DNA from: Pantoea vagans
GTDB taxonomy: Bacteria; Pseudomonadota; Gammaproteobacteria; Enterobacterales; Enterobacteriaceae
Reading direction: 5' to 3'
DNA length: 64,000 nucleotides
NCBI RefSeq assembly: GCF_004792415.1
Contig: NZ_CP038853.1
Location: 1,426,001 to 1,490,000, forward strand
Below, in pieces: positions 16,448 through 31,368 of this stretch (within the stretch, counting starts at the first letter, position 1; each line of letters begins with the position of its first letter). The notes beneath the pieces are model-generated. The model made no database searches. It saw only the letters and a program-made list of their open reading frames with translations, and was not told the DNA's origin. A program made the position numbers and the translations under genes.

Positions 16448-19400
16448 ATGAAAAAAATACTCGCTCTTAACTTTTTTCCTGCTTTCGTACCAGTATCCAA
16501 CGGCGGAGAATCAAAGCTTTATAACTTTTATAAAGTATTAAGCAAGTATCATCATATTACTTTGCTGACGTCCACACATCCTGATGTTAGTGAAGAAGTG
16601 ATTTATCATACTGCTACATTTGTTGAGCGCAGAATTCCTAAAGACAATTATTTCATGAATTGTTGGGCAGAATTATCGGAGCATCTGACTAAAGGTCATG
16701 GTGATCTTTCTGCTCCTGCTATTGCTGCAAGTGCTGCTTACCCAACATTAATGCATGCAGCCTATCTTCAGGAATATGAAACTGCAGATATTATTATCCA
16801 TGACTTTCCATTTACTGTCGATTTTGACATATTTATGGGGTTCGATGATAAACCGAGAGTTTATAATTCTCACAATTGTGAAACAGTTCTGTACAGCTCA
16901 TTGCATGCATCAGAAAAGTCAAAGCCTATTGTCGACATAGTCGCTAAAGCGGAGAAGAAATTACTAGAGCATGCAGATCTTATTTTGTACTGTGGAGACG
17001 GTGACTACGAATCTTTTAAAGAGTTAGCACCACATAAAGAATCTGTCATGTTTTATTCTCCAAACGGGATGATTGAGCAGGCAAAAGTACCATTACCTCA
17101 ATCTGAAAAAAAGAAACACTCAGCTGTTTTTGTAGGAAGTGCTCATTTACCTAATGTTTCTGCAGCATTGCATATAGCAGAAAATATTGCGCCTAAATGT
17201 CCACAGGTTACATTTGATATTATTGGTGGATGTCTCCCAGAAGGGAATTACGCTAGCAATGTTATACGACATGGTCGCGTAACTGATGCTGAAAAAGTGC
17301 GTTTGTTTTCTAATGCCAGCATAGCCTTAAACCCAATGCTATCTGGCAGTGGATCTAATATCAAAGCACTCGATTATTTTTCCTATGGGCTGCCTATCTT
17401 ATCAACATCTTTTGGTATGCGTGGTTTCAATACTCAGCCTGGAAAACATTATATTGAAAGTGATTTAAATAACTTTCCAGAAAGAATAAATGAAATTCTT
17501 AGCGAAAAATCCTTTAGCAATACATTAGATATTGGGGTTGAGGGGAAATCATATGCATCAACTCACTATACCTGGGAAGCAATAGTAAAAAAATTATTGC
17601 CACAACTTCATCTTCTGAATATGAAGAACCAAAATTTTGCATTGGTTTTAAATGATTACAATTCTTTTTCAGGCGTTGGAGGAGGAGCGACCCGAACCAG
17701 AGGCTTATATCAGGCAGTTAATGATATTGCCAATGTGGTCTTTTTGTGTTTTTCCGATGATGATAAAATTCACTCATATCAGTACGACCAGAAAACGCAT
17801 GTAATCAGCCTGCCAAAGACTGATGCACATTTGCAGGAAGTAAATAAATTAAATTCACAGTTTCATATCTCCTGTGATGATATTATTGCAAGCAATCATT
17901 GTACAAGTAATAATTTCCTTGTCTCTGTCTATAATATAATAAAAAAAGCAGCAAGGTACATTATTGTCGAGCATCCTTACATGACTCCATTACCAATCAA
18001 ATTTCATGATCGATTTGTTTATTCATCTCAGAACGATGAAACTAAACTAAAATCTGAACTGCATAAATGGAATCCTTGTAAAGATTATTTAGTTAACATG
18101 GTCACTATCGTCGAAAAAAATGCAGTTGAAAAAGCGGCTATGACTATTGCTGTTTCTGAAGACGATGCGTATAGCATGCTCGTTGGCAAACGTGCTTCGG
18201 GGCCGATGCTTGTCGTTCGTAATGGTTCGCAAGTGCCTGTGAGTATTAGTGAAAGCATTAACGAAGACGTAAAGAGCAAACTGGATGGTAAATCAGCTGT
18301 TTTTCTTGGCTCTGCTCATATGCCCAATGTGGATGCAGTTAATTTTTTACTGCAGCACGTTGTTCCCCTTTGTCCTGATGTCCAGTTCAACATTGTCGGC
18401 TCAGTCTGTAATGCTATTGCCATTAAGCCAGCCAAAAATGTGGTGCTGTGGGGCGTGGTTGACGAGGAAACTAAATGTGCGATCCTCAGTAATTCCCTCT
18501 TTGCGATTAACCCAGTTATCACAGGGAGTGGATCAAATATTAAACTTGCAGATTTCTTTGCTAATGGGTTATTTGTAGTCAGCACCGGTTTTGGCCTTCG
18601 TGGCTACCCAGACATTATCAAAAAGCATATCGCATTAGCTGAGACTGACAAGTTCTCCGACGTTATAAACAATCTCAGTGTTTCAGATTCTATTTTTTCT
18701 GAGAAAATGCGTCACGAAAGAAAGAACATTTTTTTGTCAGAACTTTCTATGGTCGGGATCGCCCGAAAATTTGTTGGCGCGTTAGAGAATCTTGAGAAGC
18801 CTAAACGTAAGGTTCTTTTCGTTACATATCGCTACACACATCCTGAGTTGGGCGGGGCGGAGTCGAACTTAAAACGTTTTCTTAAGGCATTAGGCGATAC
18901 TGACGAATTTGAAATTGACGTTGTAACAAGTGAAGTTAGTAAGATAAACAATAATGCAAGATTTATGGAAAACTATGAATTCGATTCTGCACTTGGCGCA
19001 CCCATTGAAATGTCGAATTTGAGATTTGCTCGTTTTCCTGTATTACAACAATTAGAAACCAGGACCAATAAAGCGCTGCACTCGGCATGGCGTATACAAC
19101 CCGCTTTTGAAAAAGCTGTTTTTCAAAAATCGAATATAAGCCTATATGATGGTCTTGCATGGGGTTGGTCTGATGTCGAAGGAGTTGCATCAGAAGCCTA
19201 TCGTTGGGGATACTCATCCTGCTGTATTTATGCTTCAAGTGCAGGGAATGTTCTGATTAAAGGATATGCCCCTGTAAAATCGATGCTAACTTTGCAGGCT
19301 GAATCTGGTGCAATTTATTCTTATAGTGAAGTGGAAGGAAGTTTCTCCCTTAACATTGCTGTTGAGAGCGGTGCTTTAGAAATCTTCACTTCATCACCTT

Positions 19401-20464
19401 TCACAAATAGTCATGACCCTCGTCCATTGGCTTTCATTCTTCATGAATTAAAAATTAACGACCAATTGATTGATATCACCCGTCCGGTGTTGGCAGACAA
19501 AAGTCGTATCCCAGCAGATGAAGTTTTTTCAACGCTATCTGAAGCGGCAGAGGAAACAAGATTTCCTCTTAATATCAATCTTACAGCCATGAGAGGTCCT
19601 CATTCACCATCAATGGAAGATTTTATATCCTCCAATGTTAGTAAATATGACCTGGTCGTTACACACAATATTGTTTTTAAACCTGCCGTGTTTGCATTAG
19701 AAATGGCGAAACAGAACAATGTTCCTTCGCTTCTGATTCCTCATGCTCATCTTGATGATGATTATTATCATTTTCCCGATTTGATGGAAGCAGCTCGCAA
19801 CGCTACGCAAGTTCTGACGGTCCCTAAAGCTGCCAGTGAGTTCTATACTTCCAGAGGCTGTAGCTCAACCTATCTGCCCGGCGGGGCAGATATACATGAA
19901 GAGTTTTCTGAGAGTGACAGCAACGCTTTCAGAGAGATTTACAAAGATAAGCGGAATTTTGTCCTTATACTGGGGCGTAAATCTGGTGCAAAAGGCTATC
20001 GTTCAGTTGTACAGGCGGTAGAAAAAATAAACCAGTCTGGCAAAAAAATTAACGTAGTTATGATTGGTCCTGACGACGATGGTATCGAACTTGATTCGCC
20101 ATTCGTTACCTATTTGGGAAGACAACCCCGGCAAGTTGTCAGGGGTGCGCTTCTGGAGTGTCTTGCGCTGGTAAATATGAGCACCAGCGAAAGCTTCGGT
20201 ATAGTTCTTCTTGAAGCGTGGTTGGCAAAAAAACCAGTTATCGCTAACAATCTTTGTGTTGCTTTCCATGATATGGCTGTGGACGGTGAGAATGCTTTAT
20301 TAGTGACGCCTGACGGGCTTCAGGAGGCTCTTGAACGTGTTACCGATGATGCCGAGTTATGTAAGCGCTTAGCTAATAATGGATACAGGACAGCACAGAA
20401 TTTCAGCTGGGAAACCGTGGAACAGCAATTTGTTGATTTCTGTCGCAAGACTGTCAAAAATTAG
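16448..20464 (+). CDS. Three-domain glycosyltransferase, putative D-rhamnan polymerase
   Basis: A 1338-residue protein with three GT-B units. Units A (about 1-390) and B (about 391-783) resemble each other: FVGSAHLPNV versus FLGSAHMPNV, and SGSGSNIKALDYFSYG versus TGSGSNIKLADFFANG. In both, the second acid of the EX7E motif appears as Asp and the first is absent. Unit C (about 784-1338) has an intact EX7E (ESFGIVLLEAWLA) and a beta-rich insert of about 110 residues (near 905-1010) in its N-terminal half. It occupies the position of the multidomain polymerase WbdA next to wbdD. Likely adds the D-rhamnose residues of the repeat. Linkages and donor are inferred. Confidence 0.8.
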   Translation: MKKILALNFFPAFVPVSNGGESKLYNFYKVLSKYHHITLLTSTHPDVSEEVIYHTATFVERRIPKDNYFMNCWAELSEHLTKGHGDLSAPAIAASAAYPTLMHAAYLQEYETADIIIHDFPFTVDFDIFMGFDDKPRVYNSHNCETVLYSSLHASEKSKPIVDIVAKAEKKLLEHADLILYCGDGDYESFKELAPHKESVMFYSPNGMIEQAKVPLPQSEKKKHSAVFVGSAHLPNVSAALHIAENIAPKCPQVTFDIIGGCLPEGNYASNVIRHGRVTDAEKVRLFSNASIALNPMLSGSGSNIKALDYFSYGLPILSTSFGMRGFNTQPGKHYIESDLNNFPERINEILSEKSFSNTLDIGVEGKSYASTHYTWEAIVKKLLPQLHLLNMKNQNFALVLNDYNSFSGVGGGATRTRGLYQAVNDIANVVFLCFSDDDKIHSYQYDQKTHVISLPKTDAHLQEVNKLNSQFHISCDDIIASNHCTSNNFLVSVYNIIKKAARYIIVEHPYMTPLPIKFHDRFVYSSQNDETKLKSELHKWNPCKDYLVNMVTIVEKNAVEKAAMTIAVSEDDAYSMLVGKRASGPMLVVRNGSQVPVSISESINEDVKSKLDGKSAVFLGSAHMPNVDAVNFLLQHVVPLCPDVQFNIVGSVCNAIAIKPAKNVVLWGVVDEETKCAILSNSLFAINPVITGSGSNIKLADFFANGLFVVSTGFGLRGYPDIIKKHIALAETDKFSDVINNLSVSDSIFSEKMRHERKNIFLSELSMVGIARKFVGALENLEKPKRKVLFVTYRYTHPELGGAESNLKRFLKALGDTDEFEIDVVTSEVSKINNNARFMENYEFDSALGAPIEMSNLRFARFPVLQQLETRTNKALHSAWRIQPAFEKAVFQKSNISLYDGLAWGWSDVEGVASEAYRWGYSSCCIYASSAGNVLIKGYAPVKSMLTLQAESGAIYSYSEVEGSFSLNIAVESGALEIFTSSPFTNSHDPRPLAFILHELKINDQLIDITRPVLADKSRIPADEVFSTLSEAAEETRFPLNINLTAMRGPHSPSMEDFISSNVSKYDLVVTHNIVFKPAVFALEMAKQNNVPSLLIPHAHLDDDYYHFPDLMEAARNATQVLTVPKAASEFYTSRGCSSTYLPGGADIHEEFSESDSNAFREIYKDKRNFVLILGRKSGAKGYRSVVQAVEKINQSGKKINVVMIGPDDDGIELDSPFVTYLGRQPRQVVRGALLECLALVNMSTSESFGIVLLEAWLAKKPVIANNLCVAFHDMAVDGENALLVTPDGLQEALERVTDDAELCKRLANNGYRTAQNFSWETVEQQFVDFCRKTVKN

Positions 20465-22156: not shown

Positions 22157-22948
22157 TTACTGCTGAATAGAGATATCCGTGGCGAAGTAGCGCTTCTGAA
22201 TCTGATCGAAGGTGCCATTCTTTTTGATTTCGGCAAAGGCGTTATCCAGCGCCGTTTTCAGTTCGGTATCGCCTTTGCGCAGGCCAATTGCCGTGCCGGG
22301 GCCGATAATCGGATCCTGAATAATCGGGCCAGCCAGTTCAAAATCTTTGCCCTGCGGATGCTTCAGGAAGCCAATCGCTGCCTGTGCCGCGTCGGTAAAG
22401 ACGGCATCCAGTCGGCCTGAAACCAGATCGCTTTCAACCTGTGCCTGATCGCCATAGGGCACCACGGTCACACCGTAGGGCTGCCATTTCGCCAGCGCAT
22501 AACGCTCCTGAACCGTTCCCTGTTCCACGCCGACCGTTTTCCCTTTCAGAGACTCGACGGTGGGCAGGATGCCGGCGCCTTTACGGGCAATCAACTGGGT
22601 GTGGGTGTCATACAGCGGCACGGTAAAATCGATCTGCTTCAGGCGCTCTTCGGTAATACCCATGTCAGACAGAATGGCGTCAAACTTACGCGCTTTCAGC
22701 GCCGGGATCATGCCGTCAAACTGGCTTTCAACCCAGACGCATTTCGCCTGCATCTGCGTGCAGAGCGCATTACCCAGATCGATATCAAAGCCGACCAGCT
22801 TGCCCTGTGGCGTTTTTGATTCAAACGGCGGATAGGTCGGATCGACCGCAAAACGCACCTGTTCAACTTTTGCCTGAGCGCTAAACGCGCAGCCTGCCAT
22901 AACCGCCACAGCCAGCGTCTGGCGCAGGCGTTGAGTAAAAATGTTCAT
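22157..22948 (-). CDS. Periplasmic amino-acid-binding protein of an ABC transporter (family 3)
   Basis: A 263-residue solute-binding protein. The start MNIFTQRLRQTLAVAV with cleavage after SAQA is a clear Sec signal peptide; the longer frame from 23014 adds a non-signal tail and was rejected. The mature part begins VRFAVDPTYPPFESK and contains GFDIDLGNAL, the family 3 signature of polar amino-acid binders such as HisJ, ArgT and ArtJ. No permease or ATPase gene is adjacent, so it is an orphan receptor or uses a transporter encoded elsewhere. It is 106 bases upstream of the deacylase gene and may share its transcript. Confidence 0.85.
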   Translation of the reverse strand: MNIFTQRLRQTLAVAVMAGCAFSAQAKVEQVRFAVDPTYPPFESKTPQGKLVGFDIDLGNALCTQMQAKCVWVESQFDGMIPALKARKFDAILSDMGITEERLKQIDFTVPLYDTHTQLIARKGAGILPTVESLKGKTVGVEQGTVQERYALAKWQPYGVTVVPYGDQAQVESDLVSGRLDAVFTDAAQAAIGFLKHPQGKDFELAGPIIQDPIIGPGTAIGLRKGDTELKTALDNAFAEIKKNGTFDQIQKRYFATDISIQQ

Positions 22949-23014
22949 GATTTTGCTCTTATTCTGTCGTGATGAGTGATTATGCAGAGTATCGCCGGGC
23001 TGCCGGGATGGCAA

Positions 23015-23491
23015 TTACTGCGTTATCTCAATCACGTCAGCTTTGCACAGCGCCCGGTAATCTTCGGTGTTCAGGATCACCGAGCACTCCAGCAGACCGG
23101 CGTTAAAGGCGATCTCCGGATAACGCTCAAACAGCGCGGGATCAACCACCAGTCTGAGGTCGGGATGAAAGCTGAACGGTGGGATAGCGCCAAACACGCA
23201 GCCGGTCAGCAGATCGGTCTCCGCCGGACTGGCGAGTGAGGCCCGGCGTCCACCGACCGCCGCGGCGACTTTGCCCAGGTCGGCCTGCCGATCGGCCGGT
23301 AACACCGCCAGGACATGCTGTTTAACGCCGTTGCCTTTCACATGACAGACCAGCGCTTTGGCGCCCTGGCCGATTTCGGTGCCGCGTATTGCCGCGACGG
23401 CTTCACATTTACCGGTCGCCTCATGTTGCATCAGGCGATAGCGCGCCTGATGCTGGTCGAGCAGGGCGATTAATTTTTCATGGGTTGTCAC
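23015..23491 (-). CDS. yeaK: YeaK-type aminoacyl-tRNA deacylase (YbaK/EbsC family)
   Basis: A 158-residue protein closely matching E. coli YeaK: HEATGKCEAVAAIRG, GQGAKALVCHVKGNG with the conserved Lys of the YbaK/ProX editing fold, and TGCVFGAIPPFSFHP. The family hydrolyses mischarged aminoacyl-tRNA in trans. The start is GTG 23491 with AGGAGAG six bases upstream, located inside the 3' end of hipB (14-base overlap). In E. coli yeaK is not linked to hip genes, so co-transcription with a HipA-type kinase is unusual. The amino-acid specificity cannot be read from sequence. Confidence 0.85.
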   Translation of the reverse strand: MTTHEKLIALLDQHQARYRLMQHEATGKCEAVAAIRGTEIGQGAKALVCHVKGNGVKQHVLAVLPADRQADLGKVAAAVGGRRASLASPAETDLLTGCVFGAIPPFSFHPDLRLVVDPALFERYPEIAFNAGLLECSVILNTEDYRALCKADVIEITQ

Positions 23492-23810
23492 GGTTCTCTC
23501 CTGCGGTCAGTTGCATCATCAGTGTCTGCAGCATATGCGATTGACGCGGCACGATGCCGGTTTTCAGACCCAGCGGCTTAAGCGCCCGGTTGAGGGTAGC
23601 CAGCGTGGTATTCTCCCTGTCCTGTTCGATATCTGACAGTGTCCGGCGGCTAATCCCTGCCAGCGCGGCATAACGTTCCTGAGAGAACCCCAGCACGTTT
23701 TTGCGAAGCTGCATCAGGAGCTCGCCCTGTGACAGTTTCTCTTCAAGAAACTGCTGAAGAAGATCCAGCAGCATCGCTTCACGTTCAAAAGGTGACAGCG
23801 TTTTTTTCAT
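23478..23810 (-). CDS. hipB: HipB-like XRE antitoxin/repressor
   Basis: A 110-residue protein with a helix-turn-helix at about residues 38-75 (LGFSQERYAALAGISRRTLS), the xenobiotic-response-element fold of HipB. In HipBA systems HipB neutralises the HipA kinase and represses the operon. It overlaps hipA by ATGA (23807-23810) and yeaK by 14 bases. It is encoded downstream of hipA, opposite to the classic hipB-hipA order, so antitoxin translation may depend on toxin translation. The palindromes upstream of hipA are its likely operators. Confidence 0.82.
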   Translation of the reverse strand: MKKTLSPFEREAMLLDLLQQFLEEKLSQGELLMQLRKNVLGFSQERYAALAGISRRTLSDIEQDRENTTLATLNRALKPLGLKTGIVPRQSHMLQTLMMQLTAGENRDNP

Positions 23811-25123
23811 AGTTGCCAGCCTTCAATACGCTGATCCAGATAATCGAATCCCATCGCTGGCATAGTCAGAATTGATGCCGGAACGCCTCGCTGCTGCAGG
23901 CGCTCTCTGAGTCCGGTTAGCTGGCGGGCCAGCGCGGCCAGTTCGGCCAGTAATCTGTCAGAGGGGATCAGATCATCTAAAGCCTCAGCAATCAGCTGCC
24001 ATTGATAATGTCCCCCCTCTTCAAACGGTGATCCCCATTGCGTCGTTCGTACCACGCCTTCGGGATCGGCTTTCATCGGGGCAAAATCATAGATGGGTGC
24101 AAGCCACATACCGGTGTTCTGTTTCAGGATTGCGCTGTTACGGCCATGATTATCAGAATTGCCAAACGCAATATTCAGCATGTCGCGTTTTACCCACTCA
24201 ATCACGAATCCCTCCTGCACAGCCCTTTCAGGATTAAGTCGTTTGAGTAGAGTGCGGATCACCTCGAAATGATTGAGATAGCTGCCCGGCGGTTTTTGAA
24301 GTATCGAATAGACAGACTCCAGGCCATACATCACTTTTTCGCCCTCAATGTAACTTACATCAAAGCGAGGCAACCATAAGGAAGGATAACGGCTACCTTC
24401 GCGCAACTTCATGTGCTCACAAGGAATTGTGTCGAATCCCATTGCCTCCAGTTCATGATAGTAGTGGTATTCGGCGCGAAGTATATCGCAGTCGATTGCA
24501 CTGCGTGTTCCGCGCGGATACTTGACCAGATAATGGGCATCCTGATTGTGTAAATCATCCTGCCAGGTATCTATCCATACCTCATCCTCCGGCGTACAGC
24601 GTAATAAGAGTTTTGGTGCCTCACCGCCGGCCCCGGTCGCTCCGCCGCTGGCTGCACCCATTTGCTGTGCGTACGCCAGAAAATCACTGTCACGTTCGAT
24701 GACCCATTCAGAGGGGAAGCGACGATCGCGCAGCTGACTCTGAGCGGGCAATGCGGGTACTGACTCTTTAATACGCAGATTTCCCACGGGCGCAATCGTG
24801 CCGGATTTCAGCAGCCAGTAGTCCTGTTCAGCCGCAGATTTTCCCTGTAACCCCAGTTGCTGAACCCAGTAACGTCGGCTGGCACCGGCAGGTATGATGT
24901 CATCAAGGAACGTAAACCACGGACGTGCGGCATAACTGCCAATAAGCATGACCGGATAATTCAGACTGCAGCTGGCGTAATCATTACGATCAAGATAATC
25001 AACAGCGTAGTCAAAGTCGTAAGCAAGTAAGGCGGCGCTTTCACGCCCCTGGAGGGGATGCTGAATATTGAGTTGAGCGGCATCATACCAGCGGCCTTTA
25101 ATAAATAGCTGGAGCGTAAGCAT
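23807..25123 (-). CDS. hipA: HipA-like serine/threonine kinase toxin
   Basis: A 438-residue HipA-fold kinase. Residues 1-120 match the N-terminal HipA domain; a Gly-rich nucleotide loop SGGATGAGGEAPK lies at 159-171, a candidate ATP-binding Lys at 201, catalytic FGNSDNHGRN at 320-329 and the metal-binding DFA at 346-348, so it should be active. Classic HipA phosphorylates glutamyl-tRNA synthetase and causes dormancy. ATG 25123 follows AGGTG. It is the first gene of a hipA-hipB-yeaK chain. The target here is unknown; a domesticated regulatory kinase is possible. Confidence 0.83.
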   Translation of the reverse strand: MLTLQLFIKGRWYDAAQLNIQHPLQGRESAALLAYDFDYAVDYLDRNDYASCSLNYPVMLIGSYAARPWFTFLDDIIPAGASRRYWVQQLGLQGKSAAEQDYWLLKSGTIAPVGNLRIKESVPALPAQSQLRDRRFPSEWVIERDSDFLAYAQQMGAASGGATGAGGEAPKLLLRCTPEDEVWIDTWQDDLHNQDAHYLVKYPRGTRSAIDCDILRAEYHYYHELEAMGFDTIPCEHMKLREGSRYPSLWLPRFDVSYIEGEKVMYGLESVYSILQKPPGSYLNHFEVIRTLLKRLNPERAVQEGFVIEWVKRDMLNIAFGNSDNHGRNSAILKQNTGMWLAPIYDFAPMKADPEGVVRTTQWGSPFEEGGHYQWQLIAEALDDLIPSDRLLAELAALARQLTGLRERLQQRGVPASILTMPAMGFDYLDQRIEGWQL

Positions 25124-25132
25124 GGCAACACC

Positions 25133-25156
25133 TGTTGAGCAATATTATGCTCAACA
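25133..25156. promoter_or_regulatory. Perfect palindrome at the hipA start, probable HipB operator
   Basis: TGTTGAGCA at 25133-25141 and TGCTCAACA at 25148-25156 are perfect inverted arms around a 6-base AT spacer, starting nine bases upstream of the hipA ATG. The TGAGCA/TGCTCA half-site occurs again twice further upstream (25189-25194 and 25218-25223), as expected for cooperative binding by a HipB-type repressor. Confidence 0.65.
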
Positions 25157-25187
25157 ATAACGTTTAATTTAATTTTTGAGAAGTATT

Positions 25188-25224
25188 CTGCTCAGAATCT
25201 GCATAAAAACGAAATTCTGAGCAG
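25188..25224. promoter_or_regulatory. Second inverted repeat between hisI and hipA
   Basis: CTGCTCAGAAT (25188-25198) and ATTCTGAGCAG (25214-25224) form a perfect 11-bp inverted repeat, 13 bases after the hisI stop. It shares the TGCTCA core with the hipA palindrome. It lacks a T tract on the minus strand, so it is not a good his terminator; it is more likely an upstream operator pair, or an mRNA-protecting hairpin. Confidence 0.5.
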
Positions 25225-25236
25225 GTTATTGCACAA

Positions 25237-25841
25237 TTACTTGTGGCGGGCGCGCAGGTTATTGATCACGGCGCTGAAGTCGAGATCCTGATCCTGCAAC
25301 AGCACTATCAGGTGATAGACCAGGTCTGATGCTTCATTGGTCAGCTCATCCCGATCGTTGACGGTCGCCGCCAGCGCGGTCTCAACGCCTTCTTCGCCCA
25401 CTTTCTGCGCGATGCGCTTGGTGCCGCTGGCATAGAGGCGTGCGGTATAAGAGCTTTCAGGGTCAGCTGATTTGCGTGACGCCAGCAGCTCTTCCAACTG
25501 ATAAAGGAAGGTCCACTCAGGCACAGCCGGCGAGAAGCAGCTGGTGGTGCCCAGATGGCAGGTCGGGCCAATCGGATTCGCCAGCACCAGCAGCGTGTCA
25601 TTGTCGCAGTCAGGCGTGATGCTCACTACCTGCAGAAAGTTGCCGGACGTTTCGCCTTTGGTCCACAAGCGGTTTTTGGTGCGGGAGAAAAAGGTGACAT
25701 TGCCTTCTGCCAGCGTTTTTTCCAGCGCCTCCGGGTTCATGTAGCCATGCATCAGCACTTCGCCTGAGACGTTGTGCTGAACGATGACCGGCATCATGCC
25801 CTCTGTTTTATCCCAGTCGAGAAGAGCCTGTTGTTGTTGAG

Positions 25842-25848
<7 letters not shown>
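25237..25848 (-). CDS. hisI: HisIE, phosphoribosyl-AMP cyclohydrolase / phosphoribosyl-ATP pyrophosphatase
   Basis: A 203-residue bifunctional enzyme for the second and third steps of histidine synthesis. The N-terminal cyclohydrolase half has [16 protein letters not shown] and the metal-binding cysteines in DCDNDTLL and [12 protein letters not shown]; the C-terminal pyrophosphatase half has the [10 protein letters not shown] helix. GTG 25848 is the start, overlapping hisF by seven bases. Last gene of the operon. No convincing terminator lies before hipA. Confidence 0.97.

Positions 25849-31368
<5,520 letters not shown>

Follow-up and report, generated by a model that had tools for sequence, protein, structure and literature searches.

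A reversed hipAB module with a phased operator array at the hisI-yeaK site of Pantoea

Introduction

Reversed hipAB modules, in which the kinase gene precedes the gene of its HTH partner, have been described. The relevant passages of PMC8262856 place reversed subclades within HipA clades VI and VII, add a reversed HipE family as clade IX, and tabulate no characterised member for clades VI, VII or IX. Modules of the reversed subclades are bicistronic, with hipA first and an HTH hipB second, and HipE is a deep branch with the order hipEB (PMC8262856, same passages). The hipBA systems of E. coli and Shewanella combine a protein of the HipA fold with an HTH protein, HipB. The E. coli hipBA operon has several operators, and their sequence differs from that of the operators presented below. 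HipBST is a system of three genes with a HipA-like kinase, whose small component, HipS, corresponds to the N-terminal part of the kinase. A HipA-like kinase need not act on an aminoacyl-tRNA synthetase; RpmE and CsrA are given as the targets of YjjJ/HipH in PMC9948734. The trans-editing enzyme YeaK is a Ser- and Thr-tRNA deacylase according to passages of PMC11286415, and ProXP-ST1, which is YeaK, acts on Ser-tRNAAla in vitro according to passages of PMC7603204.

Herein, a hipA-hipB-yeaK locus was analysed within a 64,000-nucleotide stretch of Pantoea vagans DNA (contig NZ_CP038853.1, positions 1,426,001 to 1,490,000), which is called the window. The locus is likened to the reversed hipAB subclades of clades VI and VII by its gene order, and it differs from them by the operator array described here and by a resident yeaK downstream; HipE was considered as an alternative kind. 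The original prediction, made from the sequence of the window, proposed a three-part module acting on aminoacyl-tRNA supply or quality. The locus is best explained, with a probability of about 0.82, as an ordinary autorepressed reversed HipAB module at a fixed hisI-yeaK site, upstream of a resident yeaK that is probably co-transcribed with the module and not required by it. A link between HipA and YeaK or YbaK was searched for in the literature; among the matches listed, HipA and YeaK occurred together only in two human-health papers that appeared irrelevant by title. The main text of PMC6581861 mentions neither 'Pantoea' nor 'hipAB'.

Results

Layout of the locus

The coordinates of the genes, operators and candidate promoter are collected in Table 1. 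On the minus strand, hipA and hipB overlap by 4 bases and hipB and yeaK by 14 bases, as had been predicted. The upper coordinate of the original prediction, 25156, takes in 33 leader bases, which include the proximal operator O2. The ABC transporter gene on the right, whose family name was given by eye, was found within the 4.5 kb examined in most but not all loci of the genus. The closest named relative is Candidatus Pantoea varia, with an identity of 97% in hisI, 94% in yeaK and 91% in hipA. Elsewhere in the window, positions 16448-20464 hold one open frame of 1338 aa that by eye resembles several glycosyltransferase-like units in tandem.

Table 1 Features of the hisI-hipA-hipB-yeaK site, in positions of the window.
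Feature	Coordinates	Strand	Description
hisI(E)	25848..25237	-	Left neighbour and constant anchor of the site, in 61/61 genus genomes; name presumed by eye from his gene order
O0	25217..25236		Distal operator directly beside the hisI stop codon; 41-bp phase to O1; 2 mismatches
O1	25176..25195		Middle operator; 41-bp phase to O2; 2 mismatches
Candidate hipA promoter	25154..25182	-	-35 TTCTCA at 25177-25182, in O1; 17-nt spacer; -10 TATTGT at 25154-25159, touching O2
O2	25135..25154		Proximal operator TTGAGCA-N6-TGCTCAA, perfect; 0-1 mismatch in 17/17 hipA-positive genus loci
hipA	25123..23807	-	HipA-family Ser/Thr kinase, putative toxin; ATG, 438 aa
hipB	23810..23478	-	XRE/HTH protein, putative antitoxin and putative autorepressor; ATG, 110 aa
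yeaK	23491..23015	-	Predicted INS-superfamily trans-editing deacylase, YeaK/ProXp-ST1 orthologue; GTG, 158 aa
Amino-acid ABC transporter binding-protein gene	22157..22948	-	Right neighbour; start assigned to first internal ATG

Identity of HipA, HipB and YeaK

The three gene products had been assigned as a HipA-family kinase, its likely antitoxin and a trans-editing aminoacyl-tRNA deacylase, and these assignments were supported by Pfam, motifs, fold and the match to E. coli YeaK. HipA matched HipA_C (PF07804) with E 2e-20 and 73.6 bits, above the Pfam cut-off of 30.5, and matched Couple_hipA with a score below the cut-off. An alignment of 30 sequences showed that the Gly-rich loop G160-K171 (about residues 160-171), D324, N329 and D346 are invariant and that the motifs NSDNHGRN and DFAPM are conserved. 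We take the roles of these positions (Gly-rich loop, catalytic Asp and Asn, Mg-binding Asp) to be those of HipA. HipB matched HTH_3 (PF01381) with E 6e-8 and TIGR03070 couple_hipB below its cut-off.

When solved structures were searched by sequence, either with the single HipA sequence or with the 30-sequence profile, no match was obtained; the fold search succeeded where the sequence search had failed. An AlphaFold2 model of HipA built from the 30 sequences had a pLDDT of 87.7, with low confidence in the Gly-rich loop, part of which fell below pLDDT 50. When this model was submitted to Foldseek, hits 1-19 were all HipA or HipBA entries (4pu5, 3dnt, 3tpt and others), aligned over about the whole length with TMq 0.60-0.69 and 12-17% identity, and the best were the Shewanella and E. 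coli HipA. The model thus predicts a HipA-fold protein with the N-terminal subdomain. The window module differs from the hipBA systems of these two species in this low identity in the structural alignments and in gene order. Membership of HipBST was considered and rejected: the 438-aa kinase keeps its N-terminal region, and the third gene encodes a tRNA_edit enzyme, whereas HipS corresponds to a part of the kinase.

YeaK matched tRNA_edit (PF04073) with E 5e-27. Of 5426 E. coli genomes, 5227 contain a match to the DNA of the window yeaK at 60-80% identity, and in the five listed the match is the annotated yeaK, with about 71% DNA identity over 77% of the query. At the protein level, YeaK is 66% identical over residues 2-156 to the YeaK of one E. 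coli genome. By this likeness, the third gene is an orthologue of E. coli YeaK/ProXp-ST1. In one E. coli record, yeaK is flanked by dgcJ and yoaI and the annotation shows no hipA in the vicinity, whereas the Pantoea yeaK adjoins hisI. The window genome (G000) also holds three further INS-family matches (C1:11766-12212, C1:3023857-3024174 and C1:3457361-3457744), one of which is 46% identical to YeaK.

Gene order and neighbours of hipAB relatives

The original prediction regarded the toxin-first order as unusual. The order is, on the contrary, the published order of reversed hipAB (passages of PMC8262856), and it was shared by all 56 hipA relatives retrieved from GTDB genomes by means of six short peptide patterns taken from the window HipA. 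In 56/56 the hipB gene comes after hipA, mostly immediately, and hipA is fragmented in a few (L126, L129, L130). At the enterobacterial and Psychromonas loci L119, L122, L124 and L230-L237, hipB starts about 150-200 bp after hipA with no overlap, an interval that could accommodate a small gene or a spacer.

The place of yeaK in these relatives is different. It follows hipAB in 10 of the 56, one of which is truncated at a contig end. All ten belong to Pantoea or [Erwinia] mediterraneensis, and in none of the 46 remaining loci was yeaK found beside hipAB. These 46 represent the closest HipA group only, mostly Halomonas and relatives, and in three of them less than 4 kb of sequence follows hipA (L097 1.7 kb, L098 2.0 kb, L121 0.46 kb). 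Similarly, a family-wide sample of 246 genomes contained a HipA relative in eight genera besides that of the window, and no yeaK was found within the flank of about 1.5 kb at their nine loci. The window HipA is up to 63% identical to HipA of the mostly halomonad type, compared with 49-58% to HipA of the other sampled genera of the family. This greater likeness, together with the operator sites shared with those loci (see below), hints at a horizontal arrival of the Pantoea hipAB.

Census of the site in the genus

The census covered 61 genomes of the genus, in which hipA, yeaK and hisI were sought, and one genome with two loci brought the number of loci to 62. Intact hipAB between hisI and yeaK was found in 17/62. 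All 17 have an open hipB of 110-111 aa and again show overlaps of 4 and 14 bases, so that the hipA-hipB-yeaK arrangement is neither due to chance nor a property of a single strain. Wreckage of hipA and/or hipB occupies the same place in nine loci (G041, G049, G043, G045, G047, G067, G003, G019 and G055). In 29 loci, hisI and yeaK are separated by 57-211 bp with no trace of a hipAB gene; the gap of 222 bp in G069 is counted from an internal hit. yeaK is unbroken in 26 of these 29 and broken in three (G069, G050, G059), and it is missing or a stub (G014) in seven of the 62.

Four of the nine wrecks combine a broken hipA with an open hipB, namely G041, G003 and G019, in which the 14-base overlap is kept, and G045, in which the end is altered. 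In the other five, hipB is also broken or was not found. The reverse, an intact hipA with a broken hipB, was found in 0/17 loci. The occurrence of the one state and never of the other fits a toxin that requires its antitoxin. The loci L173 (G041), L193 (G003) and L209 (G019) can be described as orphan antitoxins that retain the 14-base overlap to yeaK.

These counts bear on the three-part module, in which YeaK would modulate the toxicity of HipA or clear tRNA mischarged when the kinase starves a synthetase. The identical 14-base overlap at all 17 hipAB-positive loci speaks for such a module, as does the intact yeaK at every one of them (one cut by a contig end), compared with 35 of the 45 other loci, yeaK being lost or broken in ten (Fisher p 0.05). 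However, uniform overlaps fit a single junction inherited by descent, which accounts for their constancy, and by themselves they are silent on function. The link of yeaK loss to hipAB loss was rejected, as it did not survive kinship correction, after which 0-2 informative pairs were left; a weak dependence of yeaK retention on hipAB may still exist. The three-part module is further opposed by the yeaK-free hipAB loci of the other genera, by the 29 loci of the genus in which yeaK adjoins hisI with no hipAB, by divergences suggesting that hipAB recombines without yeaK (see below), and by the three further INS-family matches in the genome. A functional module of three parts is therefore highly improbable, and this central claim of the original prediction was not supported. 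An ordinary HipAB pair placed upstream of a resident yeaK is preferred, and the transcription of the three genes as one unit, which had also been proposed, is supported as probable.

Gain, loss and recombination of hipAB

In a rapidly built tree of hisI and the end of hisF (hisF'-hisI), the intact state of hipAB requires at least 12 changes, and intact or wrecked versus neither requires 17; these counts do not distinguish gain from loss. Genomes G060 (L211, with hipAB) and G061 (L216, without) are near-identical at hisI, which makes the pair well suited to locating the event.

Genomes G076 and G011 differ at 4-fold sites by 0.23 in hipA and 0.20 in hipB, compared with 0.47 in hisI and 0.58 in yeaK. 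In the hipA tree G076 groups with G011/G074 (97/93), whereas in the hisF'-hisI tree it groups with G000 (100/100). The AU test of G000 and G076 as one hipA clade gave a modest p of 0.039, for a clade that was named after the distances had been seen, and a single clade of G000, G076, G011 and G074 is not rejected by hisF'-hisI (p-AU 0.43). From these sequence comparisons, we infer that recombination has carried hipAB from lineage to lineage, one boundary of the exchanged segment falling between hipB and yeaK.

The patchy distribution, with its repeated changes of the intact state, would also suit an island for abortive infection of phages, in place of a persistence module, that is acquired and lost where recombination is frequent. 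Relatives of below 60% identity occur on 122 plasmid records, and HipA has a weak PADLOC match to PDC-M03A (E 2e-4). This match, however, covers 39 residues around a generic kinase motif. An anti-phage role is a possibility, although an unlikely one.

The operator array and the candidate promoter

Three phased inverted repeats precede hipA. The proximal one, O2, is the sole perfect copy of TTGAGCA-N6-TGCTCAA in the 4.79 Mb genome, in which 28 sites occur at up to 2 mismatches, compared with 5 for a backward control pattern. At a threshold of 3 mismatches, the 17 intact loci of the genus carry O2 in 17/17, O1 in 17/17 and O0 in 15/17, with a constant phase of 41 bp.

Outside Pantoea, the sites were counted at 43 of the 46 loci, L123, L127 and L130 having been dropped as their match does not start at the hipA start. 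Upstream of hipA, 90 sites were found at 40 of the 43 loci, against a mean of 0.56 and a maximum of 3 in 200 shuffles, which deal out base pairs and are not exact dinucleotide shuffles. Control stretches taken 1.2-1.4 kb upstream contained 0 sites in 41. The three loci with no site, L111, L122 (Rahnella) and L124 (Rouxiella), were kept in the count. Neighbouring sites are spaced by 41 bp (33 pairs), 42 bp (10), 82 bp (5), 40 bp (1) or 83 bp (1), so that 43 of 50 spacings are of 41-42 bp. In the eight further genera of the family, no site was found in seven and a single site in the eighth. The operator array marks only a sub-group of hipAB modules.

The repeats could instead form a hairpin at the end of the his transcript and have no relation to HipB. 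The right half of O0 does pair with the left half of O1 in a long hairpin, and variants of this hairpin are present in several hipAB-less genomes. O2, however, lies outside the hairpin, and no terminator was scored by the generic sigma-70 promoter and terminator scans of 22900-25900. Moreover, like sites with mostly the same spacing precede hipA in other genera, and at the non-Pantoea loci examined no hisI match was found within the flank. As no hisI was found there, it is the hipAB module, rather than the his operon, that the array accompanies. A his-operon hairpin as the whole origin of the repeats is most unlikely, and operators of HipB are the preferred explanation.

Intact hipA and wreckage are both lacking at 36 loci, of which 13 carry two sites 39-43 bp apart, 5 carry one and 18 carry none. 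The sites may partly be kept as a hairpin. Of the 13 two-site loci, 11 by a count made by eye have the hexamer TTCTCA in the right half of O1, which is outside the hairpin, and this makes a past hipAB the simpler reading of the footprint.

The layout of the candidate hipA promoter between O1 and O2 is found at all 17 hipA-positive loci of the genus, and its -10 element starts with TA in 16 of the 17. The generic scans scored no promoter in 22900-25900, the candidate hipA promoter included. As these scans overlook it, the promoter is one that we infer. Read-through from the his operon into hipAB is possible.

These features bear on a stronger form of the preferred explanation, in which yeaK would be expressed mainly from the HipB-repressed promoter and tRNA editing would rise upon derepression. 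It is favoured by the start of yeaK inside hipB, by the candidate promoter, which is placed between O1 and O2, and by the lack of any scored promoter in 22900-25900. The scan, however, misses the candidate hipA promoter too, so that internal promoters may have escaped it. We regard this stronger form as tentative, a reading that could well be true but on which we would not rely.

Discussion

The proposed working of the module follows from its layout and from what is known of the family. HipB, probably as a HipAB complex, would bind the three phased operators that flank and overlap the hipA promoter, and the operon would be repressed. HipB would also keep the HipA kinase inactive. When the HipB level drops, HipA would be freed to phosphorylate some target, and growth would slow. 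As the start of yeaK lies inside the end of hipB, yeaK would be carried on the module transcript in hipAB-positive strains, under the HipB-controlled promoter. The toxicity of HipA, its neutralisation by HipB, the autorepression, the co-transcription and the absence of a genetic interaction with yeaK are all what family knowledge and gene layout would predict. A further step would be that yeaK became the third gene of an autorepressed operon when the module settled upstream of it, that derepression of the toxin would increase the clearance of Ser- and Thr-mischarged tRNA as well, and that hipAB-less strains rewired yeaK, some of them through a leftover operator or promoter. Such a scenario is doubtful.

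Against the passages of the literature considered here, two results appear to be new: the array of operators that precedes this group of reversed hipAB genes, and a single site at which stages of natural decay are preserved. For a HipA group in which sequence searches reach no solved structure, the 41-bp array offers a regulatory signature open to testing. The locus is a clear example of how gene overlap can mislead on function: the toxin-antitoxin pair is variably present at one chromosomal site, and its downstream neighbour merely resembles a partner. The site provides a natural series (intact, toxin-dead with antitoxin open, wreckage, operator footprint and clean) for the study of toxin-antitoxin decay.
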